DNA from: Candidatus Aminicenantota bacterium
GTDB lineage: Bacteria > Acidobacteriota > Aminicenantia > UBA2199
Reading direction: 5' to 3'
NCBI GenBank assembly: GCA_026393835.1
Contig: JAPKZK010000051.1
Span: 1-64,000, forward strand
DNA length: 64,000 bases
A program made the position numbers and the translations under genes. The notes under the pieces were generated by a model. That model was not told the DNA's origin. It worked only from the letters and a program-made list of their open reading frames with translations, and searched no databases. Below are positions 11,975-53,117 of the stretch, piece by piece. Within the stretch, counting starts at the first letter, position 1, and each line of letters opens with the position of its first letter.

Positions 11975-12091
11975 ATGCGAGGTAGTAAGTTGATAACTAG
12001 AGATGAGTTATTGGAATTTCCGATTGGAAGGATTTTGCCGCAAAAAAAACAAAATGATTTAGGAGTCTTAAAAGATGGATTCAGAGAATAA
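11975..12091 (+). CDS. possible 38-residue leader peptide overlapping the first ATPase gene
   Basis: An ATG-started frame of 38 codons (MRGSKLITRDELLEF ...) lies between the promoter and the first ATPase gene and ends 17 bases inside it, in another frame. A weak AGGGAA stands upstream of its ATG. It could be a leader peptide that couples translation to the large gene, or chance. I do not recognise it. Confidence 0.25.
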   Translation: MRGSKLITRDELLEFPIGRILPQKKQNDLGVLKDGFRE

Positions 12092-14915
12092 GCCTTTTGA
12101 AAAGATACCCAACCCTTATAATCCATATGGCGTTAAATCCGGCCATTCCTATTACAATAAAGGGATTGTCGAAAAAATAAAAAATTTGTTCGAATCGACT
12201 CCCCCTCACAAGATCATTTTTATCCAGGGGAAAGAAGGATCAGGAAAATCCAGCACGTTATTGCAGTTTAAAAAAGACCCCTTACTCCTCGGAGACTGCT
12301 ATAATCCAATTTACATCGATTTACATCATCTTCTGTCCGAGAAAAGATACAATCATTTATTCAACCTTATCGAAATGTTAAAAGATTCATTGGATAAATA
12401 CCGGTTTCCTCTCTTTGTTAGACAATTGGACACCATAAAAGAGAATACAACCATTAAGGATGTCGCCAACTTTTTTAAAACCCTGGAATCTCAAATAGCT
12501 GAAAAGACAATCATCTTACTGATATTCGATGACCTGGATCGATTATTTAAAGTCGAGAATATCGGAGAATATTTTTCGATTATCGGTTTTGTAAAACGGC
12601 TGTCTGAAAAACCGCAATACCGTATATTACTAAGCCGAAGCGGAGAAATTCCAAAGCACATCAAGTTAACCCCTTTGGGAGAATCGCTGCAGGATATAAT
12701 CGGGATCAAGATGGATATTGTGAATAATGGGGAATTCACCAAACTTATTACAGAACCGGTAAAAGGGAAGGTAACGTATTTACCCTCAGCACTTAATGAA
12801 ATTATGCGAATTACCGGGGGAAACCTGTATTGTCAGCAACTAATTTGTTATTACATCATCCTGCACCTCAACAACCAGGAAAAAGAAACCTGCGATAAAG
12901 AGGATGTGGCTGCCGCTGTTAATTTAACGGTCAAGGATAAACGTGATGATTTTGAACATTTCTGGAAAAATATTCCATATGATGAAAAATTGGTGCTCAG
13001 CGCCTTGCTGGATGGGGATGTAATTTCGGTAACGGGAAGCCATTATCTTATAAATCAAGACTCCCTGCTGGAGGATATCTTTGAACCCCAAATCCTGAAT
13101 GATATTATAACCCGGTTGAGCGACAATGATTTTATCAATAAACCGATTCACAATAGGTGTTTCAATGCATTTCCTTTTAAAATTCCTTTATTCGCTTTTT
13201 GGATTATAGAAAAATATCCCTTTTTAACGGTGGTGGTGGAAAATATCGAACCTATCGCCAGGGAGAGAGATTTTAATACCCTGGGAAAAATTATTGAAAA
13301 AATTCCAGGAGATATTTTCCCACCCAATTTCCAAAGTACTTTGCATTGTATCCGGCAATGGTTTGGTATCCGGAGTTTACTGGACAGGAAAAGACGACTT
13401 GACGGAGAGAAAATCGGAAATTTAGCCAGGTTGATCAGTCAAATCTTCGGACTTCCGATAAAAGAAGATTCGAACAAAGGAAGCAATAATTTTATTGTAA
13501 ATTGCGAGGGCTTACATATCGGTAATATAAAAGAAGCCGTTTTTTTATTCCAAGATCGATTAGATATATCCACAAACGATATAAAGCATTTTGCTGATAT
13601 TATAGACAATAAGGATTCGATAATTAAACCGAGCATTTTTTTTTGTTTCGAACGAAGCGAAAAATTAAAGGAATTGGAAGAGAAATCCTATCTAAATATG
13701 ATCAGGGTCGAAGGTAACGATTTGAAAAATATTCTTTTTTCAGATCGGCCGAGCCAACTATTTAAAGAATTTTCACTCCAACGGCTTTCAGTCAACCAGA
13801 TTTCCCCTTATCAAACCGAAGGGCCTACTGTTGCTAATTTTTATGGAAGACACAACGAGATACAGAGAATTATCAATTCGCCAATAAATAGTTTTTGCAT
13901 CATCGGAGCCCGCCGCATCGGGAAATCTTCTCTAGCGCAACGCATCCAGTCTCTATTGGATGAGCGTGGAGCCGACTGTATTTACCTGGATCTCGAGTAC
14001 CCCAAAAACCCGGATTACGACAAATTCCTCAAAGTTCTCGAGTTGGGGTTCGAACAATGTTTTAAGCAGCGGTTTCATTTTAACAGCAGCCTGGACCAAT
14101 TTGTATTTGTGGTTAAACAATTGAGTTCTACCAAAAAACGAATAGTAATCATCCTGGACGAAATCGATGAGTTACTGGCCTTCGATAGAGGGCATAATTA
14201 TCAACTAATGCATGCATTTCGGAAGTTGTATCATGAACGCTGCTGCCAGATCATTCTCTCCGGTTTTGAGGAACTGTACAATGCAAAACGGGACATGAAA
14301 TCACCCCTATTCAACTTCGGGGAAATAAAACAATTGGGACCGCTGGAGAGAAATGATGCGCTGAATTTAATCACGGAACCCATGGCAAACATGGGTATCG
14401 CATATAATGAACCTGCAGATAGAAACCTCATACTGGCTTATACGGCATCACATCCGAACTTGATCCAATTCTTTTGTAAGAAATTGGTGGAAAAGATAGC
14501 AGAAAAACCCGATCAAAAACGCATTATCTATAAAGATGATATCCTGAAGGTATTCAACTCCCAATATGAGAATTTTATAATTAATGATTTTTATATGATC
14601 TTCGATGACCCGGATAATTTAATGAAACTTTTCTCCTTTCTGTGCGCGGTGAATTGCGACAGCGAAAACTACTTCTCAATGGGAAAAATGAATACGCAGT
14701 TAATATCCCTGGGAATTGACCTTAATGAAGGAGTTATTAATAGTACTTTCCAGAAATTGAAACTTCGTTTTATTTTTAAAGAGAATGAGACCGGGAAATA
14801 TACGTTTGCGCTTTCCCATTTCCCGGCCAGTCTTAAAAAAATGCATGACCCTGCTTTGCAAAGAAGTCTAATTGAGAGAATTAAAAATAATATAACTGAT
14901 GGAGAGCAATTATGA
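12075..14915 (+). CDS. tandem P-loop ATPase (STAND/archaeal-type AAA), first gene of the operon
   Basis: 946 residues with two separate ATPase modules. Module 1: Walker A GKEGSGKSS (52-60) and Walker B IILLIFDDLDRL (D152). Module 2: Walker A GARRIGKSS (611-619) and Walker B IVIILDEIDEL (D695, E696), followed by a helical and winged-helix-like tail. The ~300 residues between them are alpha/beta and unrecognised. Both modules resemble signal-transducing ATPases with numerous domains (nSTAND/AAA_35-like) used as oligomerising switches in conflict and signalling systems. Start set by AGGAG 8-9 bases upstream. It overlaps the next gene by ATGA (14912-14915), so the two are translationally coupled. 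No obvious effector domain inside. Confidence 0.8.
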   Translation: MDSENKPFEKIPNPYNPYGVKSGHSYYNKGIVEKIKNLFESTPPHKIIFIQGKEGSGKSSTLLQFKKDPLLLGDCYNPIYIDLHHLLSEKRYNHLFNLIEMLKDSLDKYRFPLFVRQLDTIKENTTIKDVANFFKTLESQIAEKTIILLIFDDLDRLFKVENIGEYFSIIGFVKRLSEKPQYRILLSRSGEIPKHIKLTPLGESLQDIIGIKMDIVNNGEFTKLITEPVKGKVTYLPSALNEIMRITGGNLYCQQLICYYIILHLNNQEKETCDKEDVAAAVNLTVKDKRDDFEHFWKNIPYDEKLVLSALLDGDVISVTGSHYLINQDSLLEDIFEPQILNDIITRLSDNDFINKPIHNRCFNAFPFKIPLFAFWIIEKYPFLTVVVENIEPIARERDFNTLGKIIEKIPGDIFPPNFQSTLHCIRQWFGIRSLLDRKRRLDGEKIGNLARLISQIFGLPIKEDSNKGSNNFIVNCEGLHIGNIKEAVFLFQDRLDISTNDIKHFADIIDNKDSIIKPSIFFCFERSEKLKELEEKSYLNMIRVEGNDLKNILFSDRPSQLFKEFSLQRLSVNQISPYQTEGPTVANFYGRHNEIQRIINSPINSFCIIGARRIGKSSLAQRIQSLLDERGADCIYLDLEYPKNPDYDKFLKVLELGFEQCFKQRFHFNSSLDQFVFVVKQLSSTKKRIVIILDEIDELLAFDRGHNYQLMHAFRKLYHERCCQIILSGFEELYNAKRDMKSPLFNFGEIKQLGPLERNDALNLITEPMANMGIAYNEPADRNLILAYTASHPNLIQFFCKKLVEKIAEKPDQKRIIYKDDILKVFNSQYENFIINDFYMIFDDPDNLMKLFSFLCAVNCDSENYFSMGKMNTQLISLGIDLNEGVINSTFQKLKLRFIFKENETGKYTFALSHFPASLKKMHDPALQRSLIERIKNNITDGEQL

Positions 14916-16684
14916 ATGATATCCGGAACCCTTACAAATTTAAAGGACCTCTCGATCCTGGAGAAGATGATCTGGTGTGTATAAAAAGAGGCCGGGCAGT
15001 AAAAAAAATTGTTTCAGGCATAATGAAAGGGGACTACTACGCCGTTATAGGCCCCCGCCAGATAGGGAAAACTACGTTTTTACACCAGGTAAAAAACGAA
15101 GAACCTTATACCCATTTCATTTTTATCGATTTCGAGTCCTCGGTTGTCACTAATGAAAATTTGTACCAGGTCATTATCCGTGAAATCCAGGAGCAAGGAC
15201 CTTTCGAGAATATTGCAAAATATTGGGATGAAACAGTGGGAATATACGGCCAGGAACTCGCTTTTCTTAATTTTTTAGAAAAGTTCCAATTCCCCAGCAC
15301 CAACAAAAAAATAATATTCCTGTTCGATGAGATTGAGAAAATTCCTTCTATTAACAACTTTTTACACTTGTGGAGAAAAATCTATCATGAACGGCTTGTT
15401 AAACGGCAGCTATTCAGGTATGGATTGGTCTTAGCTGGTTCCTCCAGCTTGATCGCGTTAACCCAGGGGGCCAATTCTCCATTCAATATCGCAGAGACAT
15501 ATTACATAAGCGATTTTTCAAACGAAGAATCATTGGCACTAATCGACGGCCCCCTTGCGAAAATGGGTCTCCAGGTAGAAACAGAAGCAAAAGATTTTTT
15601 ATTAGCCAAAGTTTCCGGTCATCCCCAACTATTGCAGCACCTCCTTTATAAATTAGTAGAGAGGGCACTGGAAGCTGAGAAAAAAATAAAGAAACAATTC
15701 GTCGCTGATACAATACAGGAGTTGTTTATTGAAAGTACAGCCCTGGAAACCATGGCCCAGCATATCAAAGTCAATAATCGCCTGGAGTATTTATTGCAGG
15801 ATATACTGCTGGAAGGAAAACAAAAACCGTTTTATCCCTATAAGGAATACGCGGTAGAAGGTGCGGGGGCGATAAAAAATAATAATAGCTACTGCGTCAT
15901 ACGTAATGAAATTTACAAAGAATTTGTCGAAGGTATACTCAACGAAAATATGACTATAACTTCTTCTCCTGGAGGCAAAAAATTGCTTAAACTCCAGGAA
16001 AATATCCTGGAAGATATACCCAAACTTAAAGAATTGAATGAGCAACTTCTCCTTTTAAGCAACAATTTACCACACGGTAGATGCCTGGAAGACCTGGAAC
16101 ATTTCAAAAAATCCAGGAAACAATATATGAAGGAATTTAAAACGCTAACCGACGGCCAGCCATTGGATGAATTGGAAGAGCTTTACCTGAAAATCGATGA
16201 GTCTCTAAAAAAAATGGGTACTTTGATCGAACAAGCGGAAATCATGCTTTATCGAAAAAATGTCCTCGATTATTACCGCAAAGACAAAAATGAATCGATT
16301 GTTCAGAATTCCCTGGCGATACTCAACCTGGAAAACCTGAAAAATATCGGGAATATTATCGAAAGGCTAAACTCCAATAATATCGCTGATGAAAACATTC
16401 ATGAATTCCTGGCTATTTTTAAATTTTTAATATCGAGAGTAAAGGAAGGCGTACTTAACGTCACTCATTATGCGCTCCTTAAAGAACTTGAGAATATGAC
16501 GGAGGTTATAAAATCCATCCAAAATTACAGGATTAAATTTATGGTTTATTTACCTCTTATACCATTGATCCTGGACAATAAGAATTCATTTTCCCAGGCA
16601 GCAAATCCCGATTTCGATATACAGGCCGAATTGAAAGAACTGGAAGCGAAATGGAATAATATTTTGGAGAAAATAAAAAAATGA
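14912..16684 (+). CDS. P-loop ATPase with helical C-terminal half, second gene of the operon
   Basis: 590 residues. One ATPase module at the N-terminus: Walker A GPRQIGKTT (47-55) and Walker B IIFLFDEIEKI (D139, E140), then a sensor/winged-helix-like segment to ~330. This is the same class as module 2 of the upstream protein and of AAA_35-type nSTAND proteins. The remaining ~250 residues look all-helical (Leu/Lys/Glu-rich, coiled-coil-like stretches) with no catalytic motif that I recognise. It is coupled by 4-base ATGA overlaps to both neighbours, which argues that the three proteins are made in fixed proportion and work as a complex. Confidence 0.8.
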   Translation: MNDIRNPYKFKGPLDPGEDDLVCIKRGRAVKKIVSGIMKGDYYAVIGPRQIGKTTFLHQVKNEEPYTHFIFIDFESSVVTNENLYQVIIREIQEQGPFENIAKYWDETVGIYGQELAFLNFLEKFQFPSTNKKIIFLFDEIEKIPSINNFLHLWRKIYHERLVKRQLFRYGLVLAGSSSLIALTQGANSPFNIAETYYISDFSNEESLALIDGPLAKMGLQVETEAKDFLLAKVSGHPQLLQHLLYKLVERALEAEKKIKKQFVADTIQELFIESTALETMAQHIKVNNRLEYLLQDILLEGKQKPFYPYKEYAVEGAGAIKNNNSYCVIRNEIYKEFVEGILNENMTITSSPGGKKLLKLQENILEDIPKLKELNEQLLLLSNNLPHGRCLEDLEHFKKSRKQYMKEFKTLTDGQPLDELEELYLKIDESLKKMGTLIEQAEIMLYRKNVLDYYRKDKNESIVQNSLAILNLENLKNIGNIIERLNSNNIADENIHEFLAIFKFLISRVKEGVLNVTHYALLKELENMTEVIKSIQNYRIKFMVYLPLIPLILDNKNSFSQAANPDFDIQAELKELEAKWNNILEKIKK

Positions 16685-18315
16685 ATAGCAATGATTATAA
16701 CGAAAGAGCCAGGGTGGCGCAATTAATAGGTAATATACCGGAAGCGGCGGATTGCTATTACAACGCAGGAAAATTGGAAAAAGCCGCTGAATTATTCGAA
16801 TGGATTAACCGGTACGAAAGAGCAGCGGAATGCTATTTTAAAGTCGAAAATTACATTGCCGCCGCCCACAACTATGTAAAAGCAAACCAAAAAGAAAAAG
16901 CCGCTAAAATGTTCGAATTGGAGAGAGCATTCGAGAAAGCCGCGGATATCAGGTTCGAGTTAAAACAATACAATGAAGCAGGAGAATTATATGAACGCGC
17001 CAAAAACTTTTTTAAAGCAGGGAAGGCCTTTGCATTTACAGACAAGTACTCAACAGCATTATCATACCTGGAAAAAGTTTCCAAAACAGATAAAAATTTT
17101 TGGGAAGCCAATTTAATTAGGGCTGAGATATATTCAAGAATACTGAAACCTAATTCCGTCCTGGAAAAAATTTTACCGATATGTGAACATGAAAAAATCG
17201 ATCGAGCGAATGTAGGATTATTCCTTATCATCGGGCAGACATACGAAAAAGTGAATCGGATTAAGGATGCGCTGTCTTTTTATCGAAAAATTTTTGTTTT
17301 TGATCCAAAACACCCTAACATCCAAAAAAAAATAAGCGATTTAGAGGAATTGAAGGAGGTGTTTACTGAAATCCAGAATGAAGAGCGCTATCAAAAAAAA
17401 CACAAAGTGGGCATGGGTGCAATGGGTGTCGTTTACCTGGCAGACGATTTAAAATTAAAAAGAGAAATAGCGCTTAAAATTTTATCTACAGAGGCCTTTA
17501 TTGATGGGAGCGATATTGAGAGATTTTTCTCAGAAGCTGAAAAAATTGCCAAGCTGAATCATCCGAATATCGTGCATGTTTATGATACAGGGAAAATAGC
17601 GGGGGAATATTTTATAGCAATGGAGTTTATCAACGGTCAAAATTTATTAAACATTCTTAATACTTTCCAGCCGATGCCAATTCTGACGATTCTTATCATT
17701 GCGTGCAAATTATTTTCCGCGCTTCATCATTCTCACCAGAAAGACATAATCCACCGGGATATCAAACCCAACAATATCATCATCACGTATGATAATGAGT
17801 TAAAAGTGATAGACTTCGGTATCGCCGTGCTTAAAGATGATCTAATAAAAAGAAAAAAAAATGTAATACTGGGAACCCCGCTGTACATGTCCCCCGAACA
17901 AATCGAAGCGAAGACAACCGACCACAGCACAGATATCTATTCCGCCGGAGTTACTTTATTTCACTTGCTAACCAATCAACCCCCCTTCAGCGGTTCCTTC
18001 TTAGAAATAATGGACCAACATCTAAATAAACAAATCCCTCCCATTAAGGACTTAAGACCGGACACTCCCGGAAAGCTTATTAAAATTATCGAAAAATGTA
18101 TGGCAAAAAAAACAGGAGATAGGTATCGGAGCGCCCTTGACGTGATAAAGGAGATCGACCAGATTCGGTATCCTGATGGAAAGTCTACTCGTCCCACGAA
18201 AGATACCCTAAACATTTTCGATGAAATAAATATGGAAACATTCCGATTAAAAGAGCAAACCTCTGAAGTTAATACTAACAAATTTGATGTCACAGACTCG
18301 AATGATTGTAAATAA
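16681..18315 (+). CDS. TPR-like repeat Ser/Thr protein kinase, third gene of the operon
   Basis: 544 residues. Residues 1-~230 are short helical repeats of TPR/SEL1 style (AAELFEWINRYERAAECYF and similar). A full Hanks-type kinase domain follows (~235-500): Gly loop GMGAMG, K266 in ALKIL, HRDIKPNN with D360, DFGIAV with D378, and GTPLYMSPEQI. There is no membrane segment, so it is a soluble kinase with an N-terminal protein-interaction scaffold. Its start codon overlaps the stop of the second ATPase gene (ATGA, 16681-16684). In context it is the likely output or regulator of the two ATPases. Confidence 0.88.
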   Translation: MNSNDYNERARVAQLIGNIPEAADCYYNAGKLEKAAELFEWINRYERAAECYFKVENYIAAAHNYVKANQKEKAAKMFELERAFEKAADIRFELKQYNEAGELYERAKNFFKAGKAFAFTDKYSTALSYLEKVSKTDKNFWEANLIRAEIYSRILKPNSVLEKILPICEHEKIDRANVGLFLIIGQTYEKVNRIKDALSFYRKIFVFDPKHPNIQKKISDLEELKEVFTEIQNEERYQKKHKVGMGAMGVVYLADDLKLKREIALKILSTEAFIDGSDIERFFSEAEKIAKLNHPNIVHVYDTGKIAGEYFIAMEFINGQNLLNILNTFQPMPILTILIIACKLFSALHHSHQKDIIHRDIKPNNIIITYDNELKVIDFGIAVLKDDLIKRKKNVILGTPLYMSPEQIEAKTTDHSTDIYSAGVTLFHLLTNQPPFSGSFLEIMDQHLNKQIPPIKDLRPDTPGKLIKIIEKCMAKKTGDRYRSALDVIKEIDQIRYPDGKSTRPTKDTLNIFDEINMETFRLKEQTSEVNTNKFDVTDSNDCK

Positions 18316-18357
18316 AAAAAGGATGTATGTTTATCTATGAAAAAATCAATCTCGATC

Positions 18358-21011
18358 TCAATGCTTCATATTGATAAATAGGTGATAAACCTCTGTTATT
18401 TTTTTTTCTCTCAGGTGCCTGGTCCGGGCCAGTTTTATATCGGTCAAAGGAAGTTCTTTTTCCTGTACTTCCTCAGACAACCTGTACTTAAAATCAATAT
18501 TGGGGATATGATTTAAATATTTTTTCCATAAACCGGAAAAATCATTGGCTTCGGCGTAGACAACGATAAAATTCCTTTCCAGGCCGCTGGGGTCATAGCC
18601 GAAGAGTTTTTTGAGGTGACTGTTAATGTTGTTGCTGTTAAAGGTTTCCAGGTTAAAAGCCTCCAACATGGCTTCGGGTCCCCCTTCTGAATTTTCAATC
18701 TTGATATCTATCCTTCCCGGGGATTTACCCGTTGCAGAACTACCCCACCGGGCCTGATCTTTTGCATTAAAGCCATAGATGGAAAGGAGAAGCGCAATAA
18801 AACCATTCCGACTGTCTTCATCCGGCTTCATGGTCCTGGATATTCCCTGCAATTGTGTGGCTATAGTGATTAAGGTTTTTAAAAGGTCTTTCCTGGGGAT
18901 ATCCCATTCAAATCCTTTTATTAACTTTTCGATGCTGACTTCTTCTGCGCTAATCTGGCACTCAATAGTAGATTTTCCTTTGGAAGTAAACATTTTCAAA
19001 ACGTCATATTTATGAAGATAGGGTTTCTCAACATCCAGGCATTTGCTGCAGGTACAGGGAATCATTTCATGATAGTTTTCATCTTTGTGAAGATTCAACG
19101 TTTTATGGATATACTCGAATTCATTTCTGATAATGGCCAACAGTTCGCTTTTGGAGGAACCGGTAACAGATATCTTCATCTTCCGGTTCAACCGCTCGCT
19201 CACCACCAGGGCATTGGAATCTTCAAATTTCATTTCAACGCCGTTCTTCCAAAAATGATCATCTCTAATCAAATAATAAATCCTGGAAATAAATCGGCTG
19301 ACAATGCCCTTCGGCATAAAATCATAATGATATTCAAATTGTAGACTGTTATCCTTTTGATATTTTCCAAATATAATCGCCAGCCTGTCGACCGGCAAGA
19401 GTTCGGGGATTATATGGTTCTCTGTCTCCAGAATATTAAAACAAAGTTCGAATTTTTCCATTAACCGGATCAATTGGGCGTGTTTTTCCCTTGGATATTT
19501 CTCTAAATCCCAATAGGACTTCAAATCGTCAAATACAAACCTGCCTTTGTTTTCCTGTATTCCCCCGGCGTCGATCAGAGTATAAAACGCCTTTGTTGCC
19601 CATTCAGGGTCGAGGATTACCGTATTTTCCAGTAATAGATCATGCCGGTAATAAAGGATAACGCCCAGGTCATGCAAATAACCGCTGAGGAACTCGGCCC
19701 GTGCTTCATTCAGACCATAGGTTTTACATATCTCAATATAGTCGGTTCTTGAAATATATTTTTTTTGTTTTGCCATTTCACGTAAATCGTTCTTTATTTG
19801 CAACCAGACTTTGGGAAGCCTGTCATGGAGGTGATTCATGGCGCTCAAAGTTTTCCTGATTTGTTCGGTCAACTCCGGTATGCCTTTACCGGAAACGCAG
19901 CTTACTTGTTGAAAACTTATAATATTCTTATATTTTGCTTCAATATCTGCCTCGTCCAGACGCTTTAACCGGACATCCGATTTATTCATTACTACGATCA
20001 CCGGGCTGTTGTCGCTCAAAAGCCGGATGATATCGAACCAGTAATCAAAACCCTGGGCTTCCTCATCTTTCCGGGGTTCCCAGACAAATAGGTAAAGGGA
20101 GCGTTTGGTCAGGAAGAACTGATGGGTAGCGTGGTATATCTCCTGACCGCCAAAATCCCAGAAAGAAATTTTTACATTTTCCGGTTTGTCTGCTTCAAAT
20201 CGGCATTGTATCTCCCAAGGTACAATATTGATCCCGTGGGTGAGTTCTTCTTTCCCGATTTCCACTTTGAAATTGTTATCTTTCAATTTTTTCATTAACG
20301 TTGTCTTGCCTACTTCGCCATTTCCCACGATGAGTAATTTGGATTCCAGGAGTCGGACAGATTCTTTTTCGATTTCTTTAAAGTAATTAAGAAAAGCTTC
20401 CTTTCCCTGTTTCACGATTTCTATGGGCGGTGATTCCAGGGGGTTGCCGGCAAAAAAAATACCAAAACGAAAGTCATACTCCCATTTGATATTCATTTCC
20501 ATTTGAGTCAATTCTACAGGGAGTTGAGAAATGCGGTTGTTCATCAAATCCAAGATTTTTAAATTTTTTAAGCCTTTCAGCACTAAAACATCCGTAATCT
20601 GATTGGAATTCAAATCCAGGTAAATTAAATTCTTTAATGCTTGTAGATGGGAATAATATGTTATTTGATTGGACCTTAAATCCAGGTAAGTTAAATTCTT
20701 CAATGTTTGTAAACCGGAAATGTCTGTGAGTTGATTGGACCTTAAATCCAGGTAAGTTAAATTCGTTGATTCCTTAAGAGCGCAAATATCCTTGAGTAGA
20801 TTGGAGCCAAATATAAGCGAGTTAAATTTTTTAATTCTTGAAGAATACTAATATCAAAGAGTTTGAGGTCGCTCAAATTTAAACCGATGACGTTTTTATT
20901 TTTATCTACAGTATATGAATGGCTTCGCCAAAGACTATCGATATGTCTTGATATCAATTCCCTACCAATTTGGCGTTCCAGTTTCTTAATAATCTCTAAA
21001 TCCTTCGACAT
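18358..21011 (-). CDS. LRR-Roc-COR GTPase with PD-(D/E)XK-like C-terminus, interrupted by a single-base frameshift
   Basis: Read as one gene of ~884 residues. It starts at 21011 (AAGGAG 6 bases upstream, MSKDLEIIKKLERQIG) and the frame breaks near 20820, just after an A6 run. Restoring one base makes leucine-rich repeats continue without interruption (LKNLxxLxLxSNQI units) into the frame ending at 18358. Then come Roc GTPase motifs (GNGEVGKTT, DFGGQEIYH, NKSD), a COR domain, a CTCSKC zinc-like patch, and a tail with E..R, GRIDI and EAFNLE, resembling a PD-(D/E)XK nuclease fold with Lys replaced by Phe. Bacterial Roc-COR proteins are GTP-switched dimers. The break may be a real pseudogenising mutation or an assembly error. 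It is convergent with the kinase operon, 43 bases apart. Confidence 0.8.
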
Positions 21012-21119
21012 GTCATGCTCCTTTTTCCATCATACCATAAAAAAAAAAGAAAAGGAATGGCGAGGGAAAAAATCTTGCCGTTCCCATTTAATTACCATTC
21101 CACGGGTAACCTACCGGGG

Positions 21120-21180
21120 CTGCCGGATAATTGTTCACGTTTTCGGGATTCCTCTCAGGTTCTCGCTTACATGGATCGGA
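21120..21180. repeat. ~61-bp direct repeat, right copy (R2)
   Basis: Partner of 11611-11672, in the same orientation, starting CTGCCGGATAATTG and ending ACATGGATCGGA. It lies directly upstream of the Roc-COR gene. The following 21181-21408 contains no intact gene. Confidence 0.8.
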
Positions 21181-21408
21181 AGATAGGGGAAACTCGGGAA
21201 GCGCCGATTAAAATCGGCATGAGGTAGAGTAGAGGATGAAAGTTCCTTACAAAAGGGCTTGACTCTTGTTTTGATGCCGTGGTAAACTTGTATTCCCGGT
21301 GAATCCGTTGATAATAAGAAAAATGAAAATCTGCGTTGGCAGTGTAAATAGGGCTAAGGCCAAGCCCAAGCGGCGGAGGCATGTAAATTATGAAAAAGAA
21401 TAAACAGG

Positions 21409-21612
21409 TTATTCCACAAAACACCTGAAAAACACCTTTGACAGTGGAGAATTGCAGGAAGATTCAGTTAGTTCCATTTTGGAAATAACTGCCGATGACG
21501 TAAATTTCGGGGACAGGCGGATTTCTGCCTTTTTAAAGATGGTATAACTATTTATAATGTGTTTAAAATCCAGGATTGTTTTCTCAAGATTTTCAAAATA
21601 ATCATCTATCAT
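21409..21612 (-). pseudogene. truncated TumE-like (DUF6516-type) toxin
   Basis: 67 codons beginning MIDDYFENLEKTILDF ... SYTIFKKAEIR, which resembles the N-terminus of TumE/DUF6516 toxins (usually ~110-130 residues). After KMELTES the reading becomes unrelated and stops early. The expected C-terminal half, with the conserved Tyr/His-rich strand, is not found intact in any frame downstream. Its start overlaps the stop of the antitoxin-like gene (21609-21612), as in toxin-antitoxin operons. Probably inactive. Confidence 0.45.
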
Positions 21613-21917
21613 TTCAATTCAAGCAATTTCTTTTTGTTTTCCAACTGCATTTCATAAATTCCGGACCAGAGCATAAAATCTTCCTCGTCCCCCAATTCAC
21701 CGTTTGTGAATCGTTTATAAAAATCTTCGCTTGAGAGGTGGTGCCTTTGCTCGAATTCTTTTAAATCGATCTCGATATTGTGAATCCCATTTTTCAATTC
21801 ATCGCTCCGGTTCTTGATAATGTCCTGGAAAAATACCTCTTTATCGGCATATTGGTCCAGGATTCGTTTCATTTTTTGCTCTGTTTCAGGCTGCAATGCG
21901 AAATCAAGGTTCAACAT
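21609..21917 (-). CDS. probable antitoxin partner of the TumE-like fragment
   Basis: A 102-residue acidic, helical protein (MLNLDFALQPETEQKMKRIL ... FEQRHHLSSEDFYKRF ... GDEEDFMLWSGIYEMQLENKK). The pattern of a long helix, an FxxxF..GELGDEEDFMLW segment and a terminal helix is that of antitoxin-like partners encoded before DUF6516/TumE toxins. It has a strong ribosome binding site (GGAGGT) and its own promoter at 21953-21981, and overlaps the toxin fragment by 4 bases. It looks intact although the toxin is broken. Confidence 0.55.
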   Translation of the reverse strand: MLNLDFALQPETEQKMKRILDQYADKEVFFQDIIKNRSDELKNGIHNIEIDLKEFEQRHHLSSEDFYKRFTNGELGDEEDFMLWSGIYEMQLENKKKLLELK

Positions 21918-21952
21918 GTTTTACCTCCTATACCTGGGAGTTTCCCGGATAA

Positions 21953-21981
21953 AATATAGTCTATTCTTCATAAAATGTCAA
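21953..21981 (-). promoter_or_regulatory. promoter of the antitoxin-like gene
   Basis: On the minus strand: TTGACA (21981-21976), 17 bases, TATATT (21958-21953). The consensus -35 and ideal spacing lie 36 bases before the start codon at 21917. Confidence 0.65.
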
Positions 21982-22362
21982 CTTCTGGACCTTTGAATTT
22001 GGGATTTGTTTCGAATTTCATGCTTCGTGCTTTCTTTTACTTCGCGTCCCTTCGCGTTCTTCGCGGCGATCTTTTTTGTTTTCATGTTTTTTCTCACCTT
22101 CCTACCCTCTTACCTTCTCAACTTCGTCTTTATCGTCAGGGGGAAATAAATTGGCCTATCCCATTTTTCTCATTAAAAATTGAGCAACCCGCGAAACCCG
22201 CGAAATACGCGAAAAAAGAAATGCCGCCACAGGCACACGACGGACACGGACAAAATTTTCATGGCCTACGGGTGAGGGCGCGTCCTCATGCGCTCATAAA
22301 AACTGCCATTGACATTCCTATCAGGTTCCGCTAAAATCCTTCTTTGTTAATCAGGAGGATTA
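21982..22362. repeat. intergenic repeat mosaic with right copy of R1
   Basis: No gene seen. In order: CGCG-TTCTTCGCGG words (22031-22070), a CTTACCTTC array (22093-22125), the exact 38-bp R1 repeat at 22159-22196 (twin of 11411-11448, an XRE-gene fragment of about 11 codons), CGCGAAA words, and a CATGGCCTACGGGTGAGGGCG tract resembling the end of the 11484 element. Confidence 0.7.
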
Positions 22363-22923
22363 ATGGGCGATTTGAATATGCACTATGTGTCAACCCTTGA
22401 TGAGGCCGGGGAACTGGTTGAAAAACACGATAAGTACTGGGTCAGCAACTGCGGCTGCCGGGAACCGAAAGGTGAATGCAAACAATCCAGGATGGACGTC
22501 TGCCTTTATTTTATCGACTATATGCCCCCCACCGGCTCAGGTTTTCACGAAGTAGATAGGGTATTTGTCGATGGCATCTTCGCGGAAGCCATCGATAAGC
22601 ACCTGGTTCCCAGGCCATTCCGGGATATCGATCAACAAACGAAAAAGATACTGCCGGAAACCACCGGCGTCTGTTTCTGCTGCAACTGCTGCTGCGGATA
22701 CTTAACTTCTCCCGGGGCAAAAGATAGCTGCGACAAAGGTAAATTTATTGAAAATACCGACCTGGATTCCTGTTCAAACTGCGGGGCATGCGTCGAAGTA
22801 TGTTACTTCGGCGCGCGGAAAATGGAAGACAATACCCTGGTTGTTATAAAAGAAGACTGTTTTGGGTGTGGGGTTTGTGTGGAGGTTTGCCCTACATCTT
22901 GCATAGAAATGAAACGAAGGTAA
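22363..22923 (+). CDS. cysteine-rich 4Fe-4S ferredoxin-domain protein
   Basis: A 186-residue protein. The C-terminus has two ferredoxin-type cluster motifs (CSNCGACVEVC and CFGCGVCVEVCPTSC). The N-terminal part has an unusual C30-x-C32-x6-C39-x7-C47 set in SNCGCREPKGECK, and the middle carries CFCCNCCCGY. It has no signal peptide and no membrane span, so it is a soluble electron carrier or redox enzyme subunit. Similar proteins are found in anaerobes with no defined partner. Strong ribosome binding site (AGGAGG, 5 bases before the ATG). No redox partner gene is adjacent. Confidence 0.85.
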   Translation: MGDLNMHYVSTLDEAGELVEKHDKYWVSNCGCREPKGECKQSRMDVCLYFIDYMPPTGSGFHEVDRVFVDGIFAEAIDKHLVPRPFRDIDQQTKKILPETTGVCFCCNCCCGYLTSPGAKDSCDKGKFIENTDLDSCSNCGACVEVCYFGARKMEDNTLVVIKEDCFGCGVCVEVCPTSCIEMKRR

Positions 22924-22952
22924 CGATTAGATACTTTCAATAAGAGGAGTGA

Positions 22953-23081
22953 TTAGGGGACACTCAGAAAGCGCCCCAGGATGCAGGCGTCTGACGGGAT
23001 ATGTTTCGGCCGTTTGGTCCGTTTGTCATCAATGGCGCTTATTTCCGCCATCTTCTTATTTAAATTTTCTCTATTAGACAT
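22953..23081 (-). CDS. small ORF, 42 residues, possible truncated gene
   Basis: MSNRENLNKKMAEISAIDDK ... with an AAGGAG ribosome binding site 7 bases before the ATG and a TTGACA/TAAATT promoter (spacer 18) further up. Basic residues cluster in the middle (KRTKRPKH). I do not recognise it. The presence of both signals suggests a real gene or the 5' end of one whose remainder was lost. It is convergent with the Fe-S gene. Confidence 0.4.
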   Translation of the reverse strand: MSNRENLNKKMAEISAIDDKRTKRPKHIPSDACILGRFLSVP

Positions 23082-49602: not shown

Positions 49603-49619
49603 TTTTGAAAAGAGAAAAC

Positions 49620-52600
49620 ATGACAAAAGCACAATATATCAAGCATGAACGATTAAAACAAATAGTTGGTGATTATAATGAAATACAAAGTTGGCTTGAA
49701 AAGCACAGGAAACGGTTAAAAATTTTAAAGAAAGACCATGAGTTGTTAAACAATGACCCCCCTTATAAAATAAATTATGCTGTTGACTTTCATGAGATAT
49801 ATCGGCTTGTTTACCCATTAGGAAATGAAAAAGAGCTAAAAAAAATCAAAAAGTCTGAAAAAGGCGACTGGATTCACCAAAAAATTGTAAGCCAAACAGG
49901 AAGAATTTGTCTTTTTTATGGACATGTATTACCTCCGATATTATTACCTCCTTACAGGGATGAATTGCAAGATTTTTTATTCTGGCTGACGACGGAATTT
50001 AAAAAAGCTGTCCAACAGTACCACCACCTGATTTCGGAGAAAAAGAAATCGATCCAAAAGGCTTTGCAAGAAGAGGGGGCAGATGAGAGTTATGAAAAAT
50101 TTAGTAAGTTCATTGAAAATAATTTTTTTCAACTAAGCATTTTAGTGATGGGAGGATATATTGAAGGATTTTCTATTTTAAAATCCCTTTTCTCTGAAAA
50201 TAGAATCGAATTGGTATCTGATAGATGGCATGAGTATTCAGAATTCATAAAGAATGGAATAGAGGAAGTACCGGATACCTGGTTTGGAATTATTGAAAAA
50301 CATCGAAAAGAAAATCAAGGCGATATTGAATATAACGAAAGTGATATAAAAAGAGAAAATTCAAGAGATCTTTTGGCACTTAATCTTGTAAAAGCATTAA
50401 ACAAAAAATTTAAAGAAGAAAATAAAAAGGAAATTGTTTTACTGGTATCGGATGCTGTGATATTTAATTCTCTATTAAATTCCACGATTGACGACGATAT
50501 AAGAAATAAAACAATAAGTGGAGTTATTCAGACGACAACGGGGGAACAAATCACACTTTGTAGGACAACGGACATATTTCACACATATTTGCTAATCAAA
50601 AAAGAGAGAGAAGAGCTAAAAGGTCAATATAAAAAAAAATTTAGTTCTAACCCGAAAATTCAGAGCAATAGAGTTATACTCAAAAACATTGAAGATGATT
50701 TACGTAAGATAAAGTTACTTGAAGAATTCGATAGGGATATTAATCAGGTCATGGAGTTTTGCAATAAGAATGAGCGTGACTGCCTGAATCTTGAAAATTG
50801 CCCCATGAAAGATTTTTGCCTCCAGGTTGAAAAAATTATTACAGATTTTCAGAAAGACAGGGAGAGCCTGGAATCGCTTGCACCCGCAGAGGAATTTGAT
50901 ATTTATTCTAAAATATACAAGAATTACCAACAGGCTTTCTGGTTCGACGAAGGAATAAAGCAAATTATGAATCTCCTACATAAAGATGAAAAAGTCTGCG
51001 AGGAAATAAACGAAAAACTCCAGAAAATACTGGAAGATAACCCCCTCAGAATACCCCCACGGGAAATTGTTAGGAAAGGAATAAGTGCTATAGGTAGCTA
51101 TTTCAATCAGATGGAAGAACATGGTCCTGACCGCCTTTATGAAGCCAGGCTTTTACTGGTGGGTGAGCCCTATGCTGGCAAAACAACTCTTCTAAAAAAG
51201 ATTCTAGATCCTAATTATAAAGTACCCTGTGATGAGGAGGAACCCACATTGGGCATTGAAATAAACTCTCAATGGAAGTTTGATTATAAATATGATAAGA
51301 GTATCATTTTCAAGGTTAACATATGGGACTTTGGTGGCCAACCCATCCAGTACATGCTGCATCAATATTTTTTAACTTCCCGTTCGTTTTACATATTGGT
51401 TTCCGATGATCGTGAGCAGAGAACCCGTTTCGACTACTGGTTCGATATAATAAAGATTTTGGGTGAAAAAAGCCCCGTATTAGTGGTTTTAAACGAAAAG
51501 AAACATCAATCTATCTCTAATTTTGATTATGACAAATACAAAAAAAGGTATTCCCTTTATTATGAAATGGAGAAACGGGATGTAGACTTTTCTAAAAATG
51601 ATGGTCGATTTGAAGCATTGAAAAATAAAATAGAAGAAATGCTCTCCGGTCTCCAACATATCGGCGATGAACTTCCCTGGCAGTGGGTTACTATCCGCAA
51701 GGAATTGGAAAGTATTAAAGAAGAAAGCCAGATCAGCATCAGTCGCTATATTGAAATATGCAAAGAAAAAGGGCTAAAAAAGGAACAGGATATGCTAATC
51801 CTATGCGGTTACCTTAATGCACTTGGTGTAATAATGTATTACAAGGGTGATGGAAGCCTTGAAGATACTATATTTCTTAATCCAAATTGGATTGTAGATG
51901 CCCTGTATACGGTTATTTCTGATAAGACAATTAAGTTGAAAAAAGGCAGGCTTAATAAAAATTTCTTATTTAGCTTATGGCAGGCAAAGGGCTACAACTA
52001 TGGCGAATGCTGTAAGTTGTTGAATCTTATGCTAAAAGATAACTTTGAGATTTGTTTCAAGCTTTCTGGAGCCAAGGATGAAAATGAAGAGTATATAGTG
52101 CCAATGCTGCTTCCGGATGTAGCACCTTATTATAATATTTCTTTTGAAACCGACACACTGAAGTTTCGCTTCCAATATTCTTTTATGCCAGAGGGTCTGA
52201 TCTCCCGCTTGATTGTACGGCTGCACGAAGATATTGAGAATCAGGCGGGCCAGGATTTGATATGGAAAAGGGGTTTTTTCCTTAATAGAAATGGCACCAA
52301 GGCAAGGGTGGCCGAAGATCTTTCAGAAAAGGGACTGAAAGTCATAGATATCAAAATATCTGGAGATGCGGGATATCGACGGGATTTACTCTTGATGATA
52401 AGGAACGAAGTTCGTAAGATTCATAAAAAATCTTTCGAGGATATAGATGTTGAGGAAATGGTTCCTTGCATCTGTACTGACTGTCGAACGGCTAAAAATC
52501 CCAATTATTTTGAATACTCGGTACTACAATTATTTTTAAGAACCGGGAAAAAATGCATTCCATGTTTTAAGAGCACAAAAGATGTGGACATATGGAAACT

Positions 52601-53117
52601 GATCGAAGAAGTAGGTCCCATGGAGGAATTCAAAGAATGTTATCAAATGAAGAAATTGGGAAAAGATATCGATTTGGAGCAAACAACAGTCCAACAGATC
52701 AAAGATTTAGAAGATAGAATTAAAATAACCCGTGAGCAATTAGAAACAGAAGAAAATAAAAAAGCAGAGTGCAATAAAATGGCAGCACGAAAAGCCAATC
52801 GCAGCAGTTGGTGGATTTTCTTATTTGATGTCATGCTAGTGGCAGTATGGGGCGGGTTGGTCTTAGTATTTGGATGGAGTAAGATGGAAGAATGGGCAAC
52901 CCATGTAGGATTAGTTGGAGTTGTGGTCAATGCACTCTACTTTGCCATTTTTAGGAGAAAGTTGAATTCCGAAGAAATCAAAACTAAGAGATTTGAAAAT
53001 GAAAAAGATAGGTTGTACCATTTATATGGAGTTAACCTGAATACAATTAATCGCTTAGAAAAGGAATTAAATGAGGCTGAATCCCAAAAGAAGAATTTTC
53101 TCTCTTCTTCACGTTGA
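49620..53117 (+). CDS. PIN-like/Roc-COR GTPase membrane protein
   Basis: 1165 residues from the ATG at 49620; the paralogue at 45177 begins at the aligned Met, and an upstream TTG (49605) is the alternative. Residues 1-~490 are the same PIN-like module as in 45177-47531 (YAVDFHEIYRLVYPL ... NSRDLLALNLVKAL ... LLVSDAVIFNSLL ... TTDIFHTYLL). Then a Roc GTPase: G1 GEPYAGKTT (515-523) and G3 WDFGGQPIQYM; the G4 motif is degenerate (VVLNEKK instead of NKxD). A COR domain and a CICTDC ... CIPC zinc-like patch follow, then a coiled coil, two membrane helices (WWIFLFDVMLVAVWGGLVLV and VGVVVNALYFAIF) and a final coiled coil. Typical bacterial Roco proteins have leucine-rich repeats where this has the PIN-like module. 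Likely a membrane-attached, GTP-gated nuclease. Confidence 0.78.
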   Translation: MTKAQYIKHERLKQIVGDYNEIQSWLEKHRKRLKILKKDHELLNNDPPYKINYAVDFHEIYRLVYPLGNEKELKKIKKSEKGDWIHQKIVSQTGRICLFYGHVLPPILLPPYRDELQDFLFWLTTEFKKAVQQYHHLISEKKKSIQKALQEEGADESYEKFSKFIENNFFQLSILVMGGYIEGFSILKSLFSENRIELVSDRWHEYSEFIKNGIEEVPDTWFGIIEKHRKENQGDIEYNESDIKRENSRDLLALNLVKALNKKFKEENKKEIVLLVSDAVIFNSLLNSTIDDDIRNKTISGVIQTTTGEQITLCRTTDIFHTYLLIKKEREELKGQYKKKFSSNPKIQSNRVILKNIEDDLRKIKLLEEFDRDINQVMEFCNKNERDCLNLENCPMKDFCLQVEKIITDFQKDRESLESLAPAEEFDIYSKIYKNYQQAFWFDEGIKQIMNLLHKDEKVCEEINEKLQKILEDNPLRIPPREIVRKGISAIGSYFNQMEEHGPDRLYEARLLLVGEPYAGKTTLLKKILDPNYKVPCDEEEPTLGIEINSQWKFDYKYDKSIIFKVNIWDFGGQPIQYMLHQYFLTSRSFYILVSDDREQRTRFDYWFDIIKILGEKSPVLVVLNEKKHQSISNFDYDKYKKRYSLYYEMEKRDVDFSKNDGRFEALKNKIEEMLSGLQHIGDELPWQWVTIRKELESIKEESQISISRYIEICKEKGLKKEQDMLILCGYLNALGVIMYYKGDGSLEDTIFLNPNWIVDALYTVISDKTIKLKKGRLNKNFLFSLWQAKGYNYGECCKLLNLMLKDNFEICFKLSGAKDENEEYIVPMLLPDVAPYYNISFETDTLKFRFQYSFMPEGLISRLIVRLHEDIENQAGQDLIWKRGFFLNRNGTKARVAEDLSEKGLKVIDIKISGDAGYRRDLLLMIRNEVRKIHKKSFEDIDVEEMVPCICTDCRTAKNPNYFEYSVLQLFLRTGKKCIPCFKSTKDVDIWKLIEEVGPMEEFKECYQMKKLGKDIDLEQTTVQQIKDLEDRIKITREQLETEENKKAECNKMAARKANRSSWWIFLFDVMLVAVWGGLVLVFGWSKMEEWATHVGLVGVVVNALYFAIFRRKLNSEEIKTKRFENEKDRLYHLYGVNLNTINRLEKELNEAESQKKNFLSSSR

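Follow-up and report, generated by a model that had tools for sequence, protein, structure and literature searches.

The LRR-Roc-COR gene at 18358-21011 (-) of the window (the whole stretch of 64,000 nucleotides that was analysed) ends in a nuclease-like tail, which is probably the nuclease effector of a bacterial defence Roco protein that senses through leucine-rich repeats (LRRs) and is switched by GTP. This reading, to which we assign a probability of about 0.6, is drawn from the domain order, the predicted fold of the tail, four invariant residues (E-D-E-K), and the spread of the tail over defence-associated platforms. On this explanation, the gene is a member of a bacterial LRR-Roc-COR family whose proteins continue after COR-B into a fused PD-(D/E)XK nuclease domain, the catalytic lysine of which is carried by a helix. 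Intact homologues are present in the same genus.

By its sequence, the gene product is a Roco protein, with an LRR array, a Roc domain containing a P-loop, and a COR domain after Roc. The P-loop (GNGEVGKT) and the switch (DFGGQ) of the Roc domain were read in the translation. The LRR array is split by a frame change. The features are as follows, residues of the tail being numbered along the 195-residue sequence P0002 (window 18361-18945).

20757-21011 (-): N-terminal ORF of 84 residues with an ATG start, comprising the N-cap and the first LRR, in a frame that differs from the rest of the gene
18358-20847 (-): main open frame of 829 residues plus stop, comprising the remaining LRRs, Roc, COR-A, COR-B, and the nuclease-like tail
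20757-20847 (-): overlap of 91 bases between the N-terminal ORF and the main frame
20503-20805 (-): LRRs in the main frame (Pfam; LRR_4, E 2.1e-17, and LRR_8)
19975-20340 (-): Roc GTPase domain (Pfam; PF08477, 99.1 bits for a cut-off of 27)
19396-19815 (-): COR-A (Pfam; PF16095, E 1.4e-42)
18916-19350 (-): COR-B (Pfam; PF25497, E 1.8e-32)
18361-18888 (-): PD-(D/E)XK-like tail domain, about residues 20-195 of P0002
18817-18819 (-): E43, motif I acid, at the start of helix alpha-A
18706-18708 (-): D80, motif II acid (GRIDI)
18661-18663 (-): E95, motif III acid (EAF), the K position of ExK being F97
18607-18609 (-): K113, invariant lysine of helix alpha-B (motif IV), likely the migrated catalytic lysine
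18382-18384 (-): H188, invariant histidine of the C-terminal strand pair (31/31 relatives)
49605-53117 (+): second Roc-COR protein of the window, with Roc, COR-A, COR-B, and a C-terminal MCU-like stretch (Pfam)

In the proposed mechanism, the LRR array would bind an invader-derived ligand, and the GTP cycle of Roc-COR would control the pairing or the exposure of the C-terminal nuclease tails, with a switch that could operate in either direction. The tails would then cut the DNA of the invader or that of the host, the latter leading to abortive infection. CtRoco has been reported to switch from a dimer without nucleotide to a monomer with bound GTP (PMC11052575). We infer the LRR ligand, the control by GTP, and the cleavage target, and the defence role attributed to the Roc-COR-tail protein is derived from the contexts of the tail domain.

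Conserved residues and predicted fold of the tail

The motifs that the initial annotation had read in the tail, E..R (as EDSR), GRIDI, and EAFNLE, are all present; the arginine of the first (R46) is not conserved (19/31 relatives). In an alignment of 21 sequences (A2), the sole invariant columns are E43, D80, E95, K113, Y117, Y143, and H188. All seven residues are also invariant (31/31) in a wider set of 31 sequences, which includes copies from E. coli, viral contigs, and the genus, and which combines several near-duplicates with many rows of low mutual identity. Throughout this set, the motif I acid E43 and the motif II aspartate D80 are kept. Motif III retains E95 in 31/31 sequences with F, L, or M at position 97, the site of the ExK lysine, in 31/31, and the canonical lysine is absent.

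In the structure model, K113 is carried by helix 104-117 and is likely to be the migrated catalytic lysine. PD-(D/E)XK families with a migrated motif III lysine have been described (PMC1913061, PMC1189080), including families in which the lysine has moved to the following helix (PMC1913061). Since these families count as members, a canonical (D/E)XK is not obligatory for membership of PD-(D/E)XK. The absence of the canonical lysine nonetheless raises the possibility of an inactive fold. The tail might keep the restriction-endonuclease fold in a catalytically dead form and bind nucleic acid or partner proteins; an inactivated nuclease-like domain, that of RecC, is the topic of a published paper. 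We consider this improbable, since the three acids and the helix lysine are kept in 31/31 sequences, many of low mutual identity, and since such invariance of E/D/E/K is what an active site would show if its lysine had migrated.

The AlphaFold2 model of the tail, obtained from an 8-row alignment (pLDDT 82.1), contains helix 43-56, strands 60-65, 79-84, and 90-99, helix 104-117, and strand 124-131. E43 opens helix 43-56, strands 79-84 and 90-99 carry D80 and E95, respectively, and K113 is on helix 104-117. The model of a relative displaying 23% identity has the same fold (pLDDT 81.3), the two models sharing most alignment rows. Comparison of the first model by VIA-align, which re-ranks Foldseek's own list and returned nearly all Z scores under 9, gave OkrAI (Z 9.2, 140 residues, 3.7 A), BamHI (8.7), BglII (8.7), McrBC (7.9, the chain being taken as McrC), and NucC (7.1). 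Ranks 1-23 are occupied by restriction enzymes, McrBC, NucC, or SduA, except for AF1548 (function unknown). The second model gave OkrAI (8.8), BglII (8.5), BstYI (8.0), and McrBC (7.6). McrC, NucC, and SduA are PD-(D/E)XK proteins. With Foldseek alone, neither model matched a PDB entry at E<=0.001, and the lists contain many tyrosine phosphatases and also thioredoxin reductases. In BFVD, a single match was obtained at E<=0.001 (an uncharacterised protein), and a PD-(D/E)XK nuclease appeared at 2.6e-3. Since Foldseek alone is uninformative, the case for a nuclease rests on the topology, the residue conservation, and the re-ranked alignments taken together.

Searches with the tail returned no family over the cut-off in Pfam, NCBIfam, or PHROGs. 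T4_MRH (PF24070) was rejected because its score of 17.5 bits (E 0.004) is below the cut-off of 24.4, and DUF4365 gave no match. Nothing was matched among PDB sequences, solved nucleases included. PADLOC provided weak hints only, PDC-S04 for the tail (E 0.0065) and CARF_PDDEXK for its relative ORF333 of P2-EC5 (E 0.0042). The initial proposal, in which Roc-COR is followed by a PD-(D/E)XK-like tail whose ExK is altered, is supported by the models and by the conserved residues, the lysine appearing displaced to the following helix.

Frame change in the window copy

The first LRR and the rest of the gene are read in different frames, and this frame change is the only lesion, with no stop in the remaining 829 codons. 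The break was mapped by comparison with L062, an intact open frame of 887 residues in a genome of the same genus (G401; 65% identity). The match to L062 extends through residue 69 of the N-terminal frame and resumes at residue 16 of the main frame, thus placing the frame change near 20802-20806. An A6 run is present at 20832-20827, the homology-mapped break being located about 20-30 bases 3' of it. The initial annotation, which had set the break near 20820 after the A6 run, was therefore close in position without being exact. It correctly anticipated an interruption by one base, as the window copy harbours a single frame change and no further decay in comparison to its homologues. The several additional lesions that it had associated with a plain pseudogene were sought in the gene sequence, and one lesion only was found. 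The window copy harbours either a single recent frame change in the LRR array or an assembly error.

Among the columns that are otherwise invariant in an alignment of 10 Roc-COR-tail proteins, the window copy differs at 14/196. The other nine proteins range from 1/183 to 17/199, and the intact proteins of loci L018 and L020 deviate at 14/196 and 17/199, respectively. The remaining seven rows deviate at 1 to 7 columns; for several of them, the count is lowered by the presence of near relatives in the alignment set. Comparison of the window copy with L062 gave a pN of 0.21, a pS of 0.74 (saturated), and a pN/pS of about 0.28, a ratio that reflects history and stays compatible with a recent loss. 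The column counts and the ratio indicate that the gene was under selection until recently, with no clear excess of decay.

A decaying relic devoid of product is a serious possibility, although well short of even odds. The frame change within the LRR array is in agreement with it, as are the tail fragments found in the same genome (e.g. C57:2096-2305). It is weakened by the presence of a single lesion, by a number of deviating columns comparable with those of the intact L018 and L020, and by the pN/pS ratio, which is, however, blind to recent loss. The family is intact elsewhere, whatever the fate of the window copy. The gene has somewhat less than an even chance of being intact, with the frame change due to an error of assembly or sequencing. 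The source assembly, in which the window is part of contig C95, is fragmented (8.19 Mb, 212 contigs, 91.7% complete, 6.58% contamination), an AT-rich stretch is close by, and the gene has not decayed further; the distance of 20-30 bases between the mapped break and the A6 run argues against such an error.

Programmed -1 frameshifting at an A AAA AAT heptamer, which would join both ORFs as a control of expression, appears very unlikely. Relative to the N-terminal ORF, the main frame is shifted by -1, and the slippery heptamer, located at 20832, is in phase and upstream of the break. In-phase heptamers are, however, frequent in intact relatives, with 2 to 7 in the LRR part of each of the 8 analysed, and we accordingly give little weight to this one. 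In addition, the LRR consensus persists in the N-terminal frame beyond the heptamer, and no shift is needed in the intact relatives. No Rfam RNA family was detected at 17000-23000. As the sequence stands, the full-length product of the window copy is probably not made, and a Roc-COR-nuclease could be translated via an internal start.

Distribution and genomic contexts of the tail

A search of the source genome with the tail gave 9 matches, of which 8 reach E<=1e-33. Six are carried by Roc proteins (contigs C95, C62 twice, C160, C156, and C27); the others are on a TIR-like protein (C71), free-standing (C57), and a fragment. The genome contains 24 Roc matches (22 over the cut-off), several of these paralogues differing in their C-terminal domain, as is typical of AP-GTPase systems. 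The present domain is found on 6, DUF4365 on 2, and membrane-type segments (assigned by eye) or no tail on the others inspected. DUF4365 follows Roc in contigs C52 and C210 (L034:5585-7588 (+) and L035:3791-6676 (-)), the L035 protein containing WD40 repeats instead of LRRs. The Roc protein encoded by L021:6219-8015 (+) appears by eye to have no COR-B, its COR-A running straight into the tail. Two Roc proteins of contig C65 have no tail, one of them joining COR-end sequence in frame to the last residues of the tail. These architectures indicate that the tail is a module, subject to both gain and loss.

In the operon-like row at L024:3505-7015 (+), a gene encoding a TIR and PtuA-like AAA protein and then an HNH gene precede the TIR-tail gene (L024:6005-7015 (+)). 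This row resembles Septu with an added TIR-tail effector.

Within the family, 4 of 34 genomes contain the tail, and within the class 4 of 142, all in one genus. Outside this genus the tail is rare in the phylum, with 2 positive genomes among the 396 sampled, one of which is the source genome itself. Four named loci, in assemblies of Acidobacteriota (two loci), Candidatus Aminicenantes, and Bacteroidales, encode relatives displaying 38-42% identity in the best segment; the Bacteroidales assembly (L049) has tandem Roc-COR-tail genes without LRRs. A Roc protein with the tail is encoded by a plasmid of Spirosoma linguale. The number of matches in the source genome and the relatives found in several phyla place the tail beyond chance observation.

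In Photobacterium toruni, an LRR-Roc-COR-tail gene (L094:3850-6588 (+)) is located within a type I-F CRISPR-associated transposon, flanked on one side by the transposition genes and the HTH regulator and on the other by the TniQ and Cas genes. The tail is also present on proteins of ~1,250 residues encoded by plasmids of Salmonella, Burkholderia, and Edwardsiella, the Burkholderia gene adjoining an OLD-like gene. ORF333 of P2-EC5 carries the tail domain and is located behind the AAA_15 gene ORF555 (L090:243-2913; L098:6332-9002). Matches to ORF333 were obtained in 7 of 5,426 E. coli genomes, 4 of them covering at least 80% of its length. In the two full-length matches examined, the pair belongs to a P2-like prophage, where it is flanked by the replication and portal genes (gpA-gpQ), a locus described as an antiviral hotspot by Rousset et al. 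(PMC9122126). Two of the three weaker matches were examined, and both are beside integrase or recombinase genes. ORF555 and ORF333 form a candidate two-gene antiviral system, which is not named in the available text of PMC9122126. Scans of a viral collection with profile A1 and with the L100 and L094 tails gave no relative, and the L090 and L092 tails gave one each, indicating that the tail domain is not a common gene in this collection.

The genes surrounding the Roco gene in the window form no clear defence operon. Three overlapping genes at 12075-18315 (+), convergent with the Roco gene, encode two proteins of AAA type, of which the second is AAA_35, and a protein with TPR and a Ser/Thr kinase; PADLOC gave weak MADS and PDC-S01 matches. 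Two short overlapping ORFs upstream of the Roco gene, at 21409-21917 (-), resemble a toxin-antitoxin pair by eye and match no Pfam family over the cut-off.

The initial annotation had drawn a parallel with a PIN-Roc-COR protein and counted two GTPase-nuclease pairings in the window. Neither proposal was borne out by the analysis of the second Roc-COR protein (49605-53117), since Pfam returned no PIN match at E<=1 over the full length of the protein, and its first 489 residues matched nothing at E<=5, searches that could miss a divergent PIN. The last ~150 residues of this protein have an MCU-like score (E 3.2e-9) and appear to include a membrane segment.

We see an even chance that an unnamed PD-(D/E)XK family with a migrated lysine is a warhead that bacterial immune systems have in common, carried by LRR-Roc-COR proteins, Septu-like TIR proteins, the AAA pairs of the P2 hotspot, and large plasmid proteins. 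The bacterial LRRK2 homologues bearing it would then be GTP-gated, NLR-like immune receptors that cut DNA.

Comparison with known systems

According to a review published in 2019, very little was known about the function of Roco proteins in bacteria and archaea, and all prokaryotic members identified so far consisted of LRR-RocCOR only (PMC6337361). Our literature search, in which subscription papers, bioRxiv, and supplements were poorly covered, retrieved no restriction-endonuclease-like tail on Roc-COR. The presence of a conserved nuclease-type tail suggests a direct assay, namely whether the GTP state of a bacterial LRRK2 homologue gates DNA cleavage, and the gene pair of the P2 hotspot makes the domain testable in E. 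coli. Bacterial relatives of LRRK2, a protein linked to Parkinson's disease, may be GTP-switched immune sensors when they have this tail.

CtRoco of Chlorobaculum tepidum (8r4b_A) has a homologous LRR-Roc-COR core (E 3.3e-115), followed after COR by about 150 residues of unknown structure (PMC11052575). The tail of CtRoco is not detectably the present domain, as profile A2 matches no CtRoco chain at E<=10. DUF4365 (PF14280) is, like the tail, a nuclease-type family behind Roc in the same genome; it is, however, a separate Pfam family, which the tail does not match. The group of BamHI, BglII, and OkrAI, together with McrC, resembles the tail in its predicted fold and in three acids at the positions of motifs I-III, whereas the tail has no ExK, carries its lysine on helix alpha-B, and displays no detectable sequence similarity to these enzymes. 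ORF333 of P2-EC5 shares the tail domain and all four E/D/E/K residues, but is paired with a separate AAA_15 ATPase (ORF555), in contrast to the fusion to Roc-COR in the window protein.

A close parallel in organization is provided by the prokaryotic AP-GTPase-COR proteins, which combine LRRs with at least 24 alternative C-terminal domains and have been described as counter-invader systems (Kaur et al., 2021; PMC8195603). As here, an LRR-Roc-COR core is followed by a variable C-terminal effector, with many paralogues per genome. The domains named include TIR, DRHyd, caspase, trypsin, FGS, GT4, and EADs; the available text does not name a restriction-endonuclease-like effector, although figure 6D or the source data may list one. 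Thus, Roc-COR conflict systems with swappable effectors have already been published, and the new element here is a nuclease-type effector family with a migrated lysine, nameless in the libraries searched.
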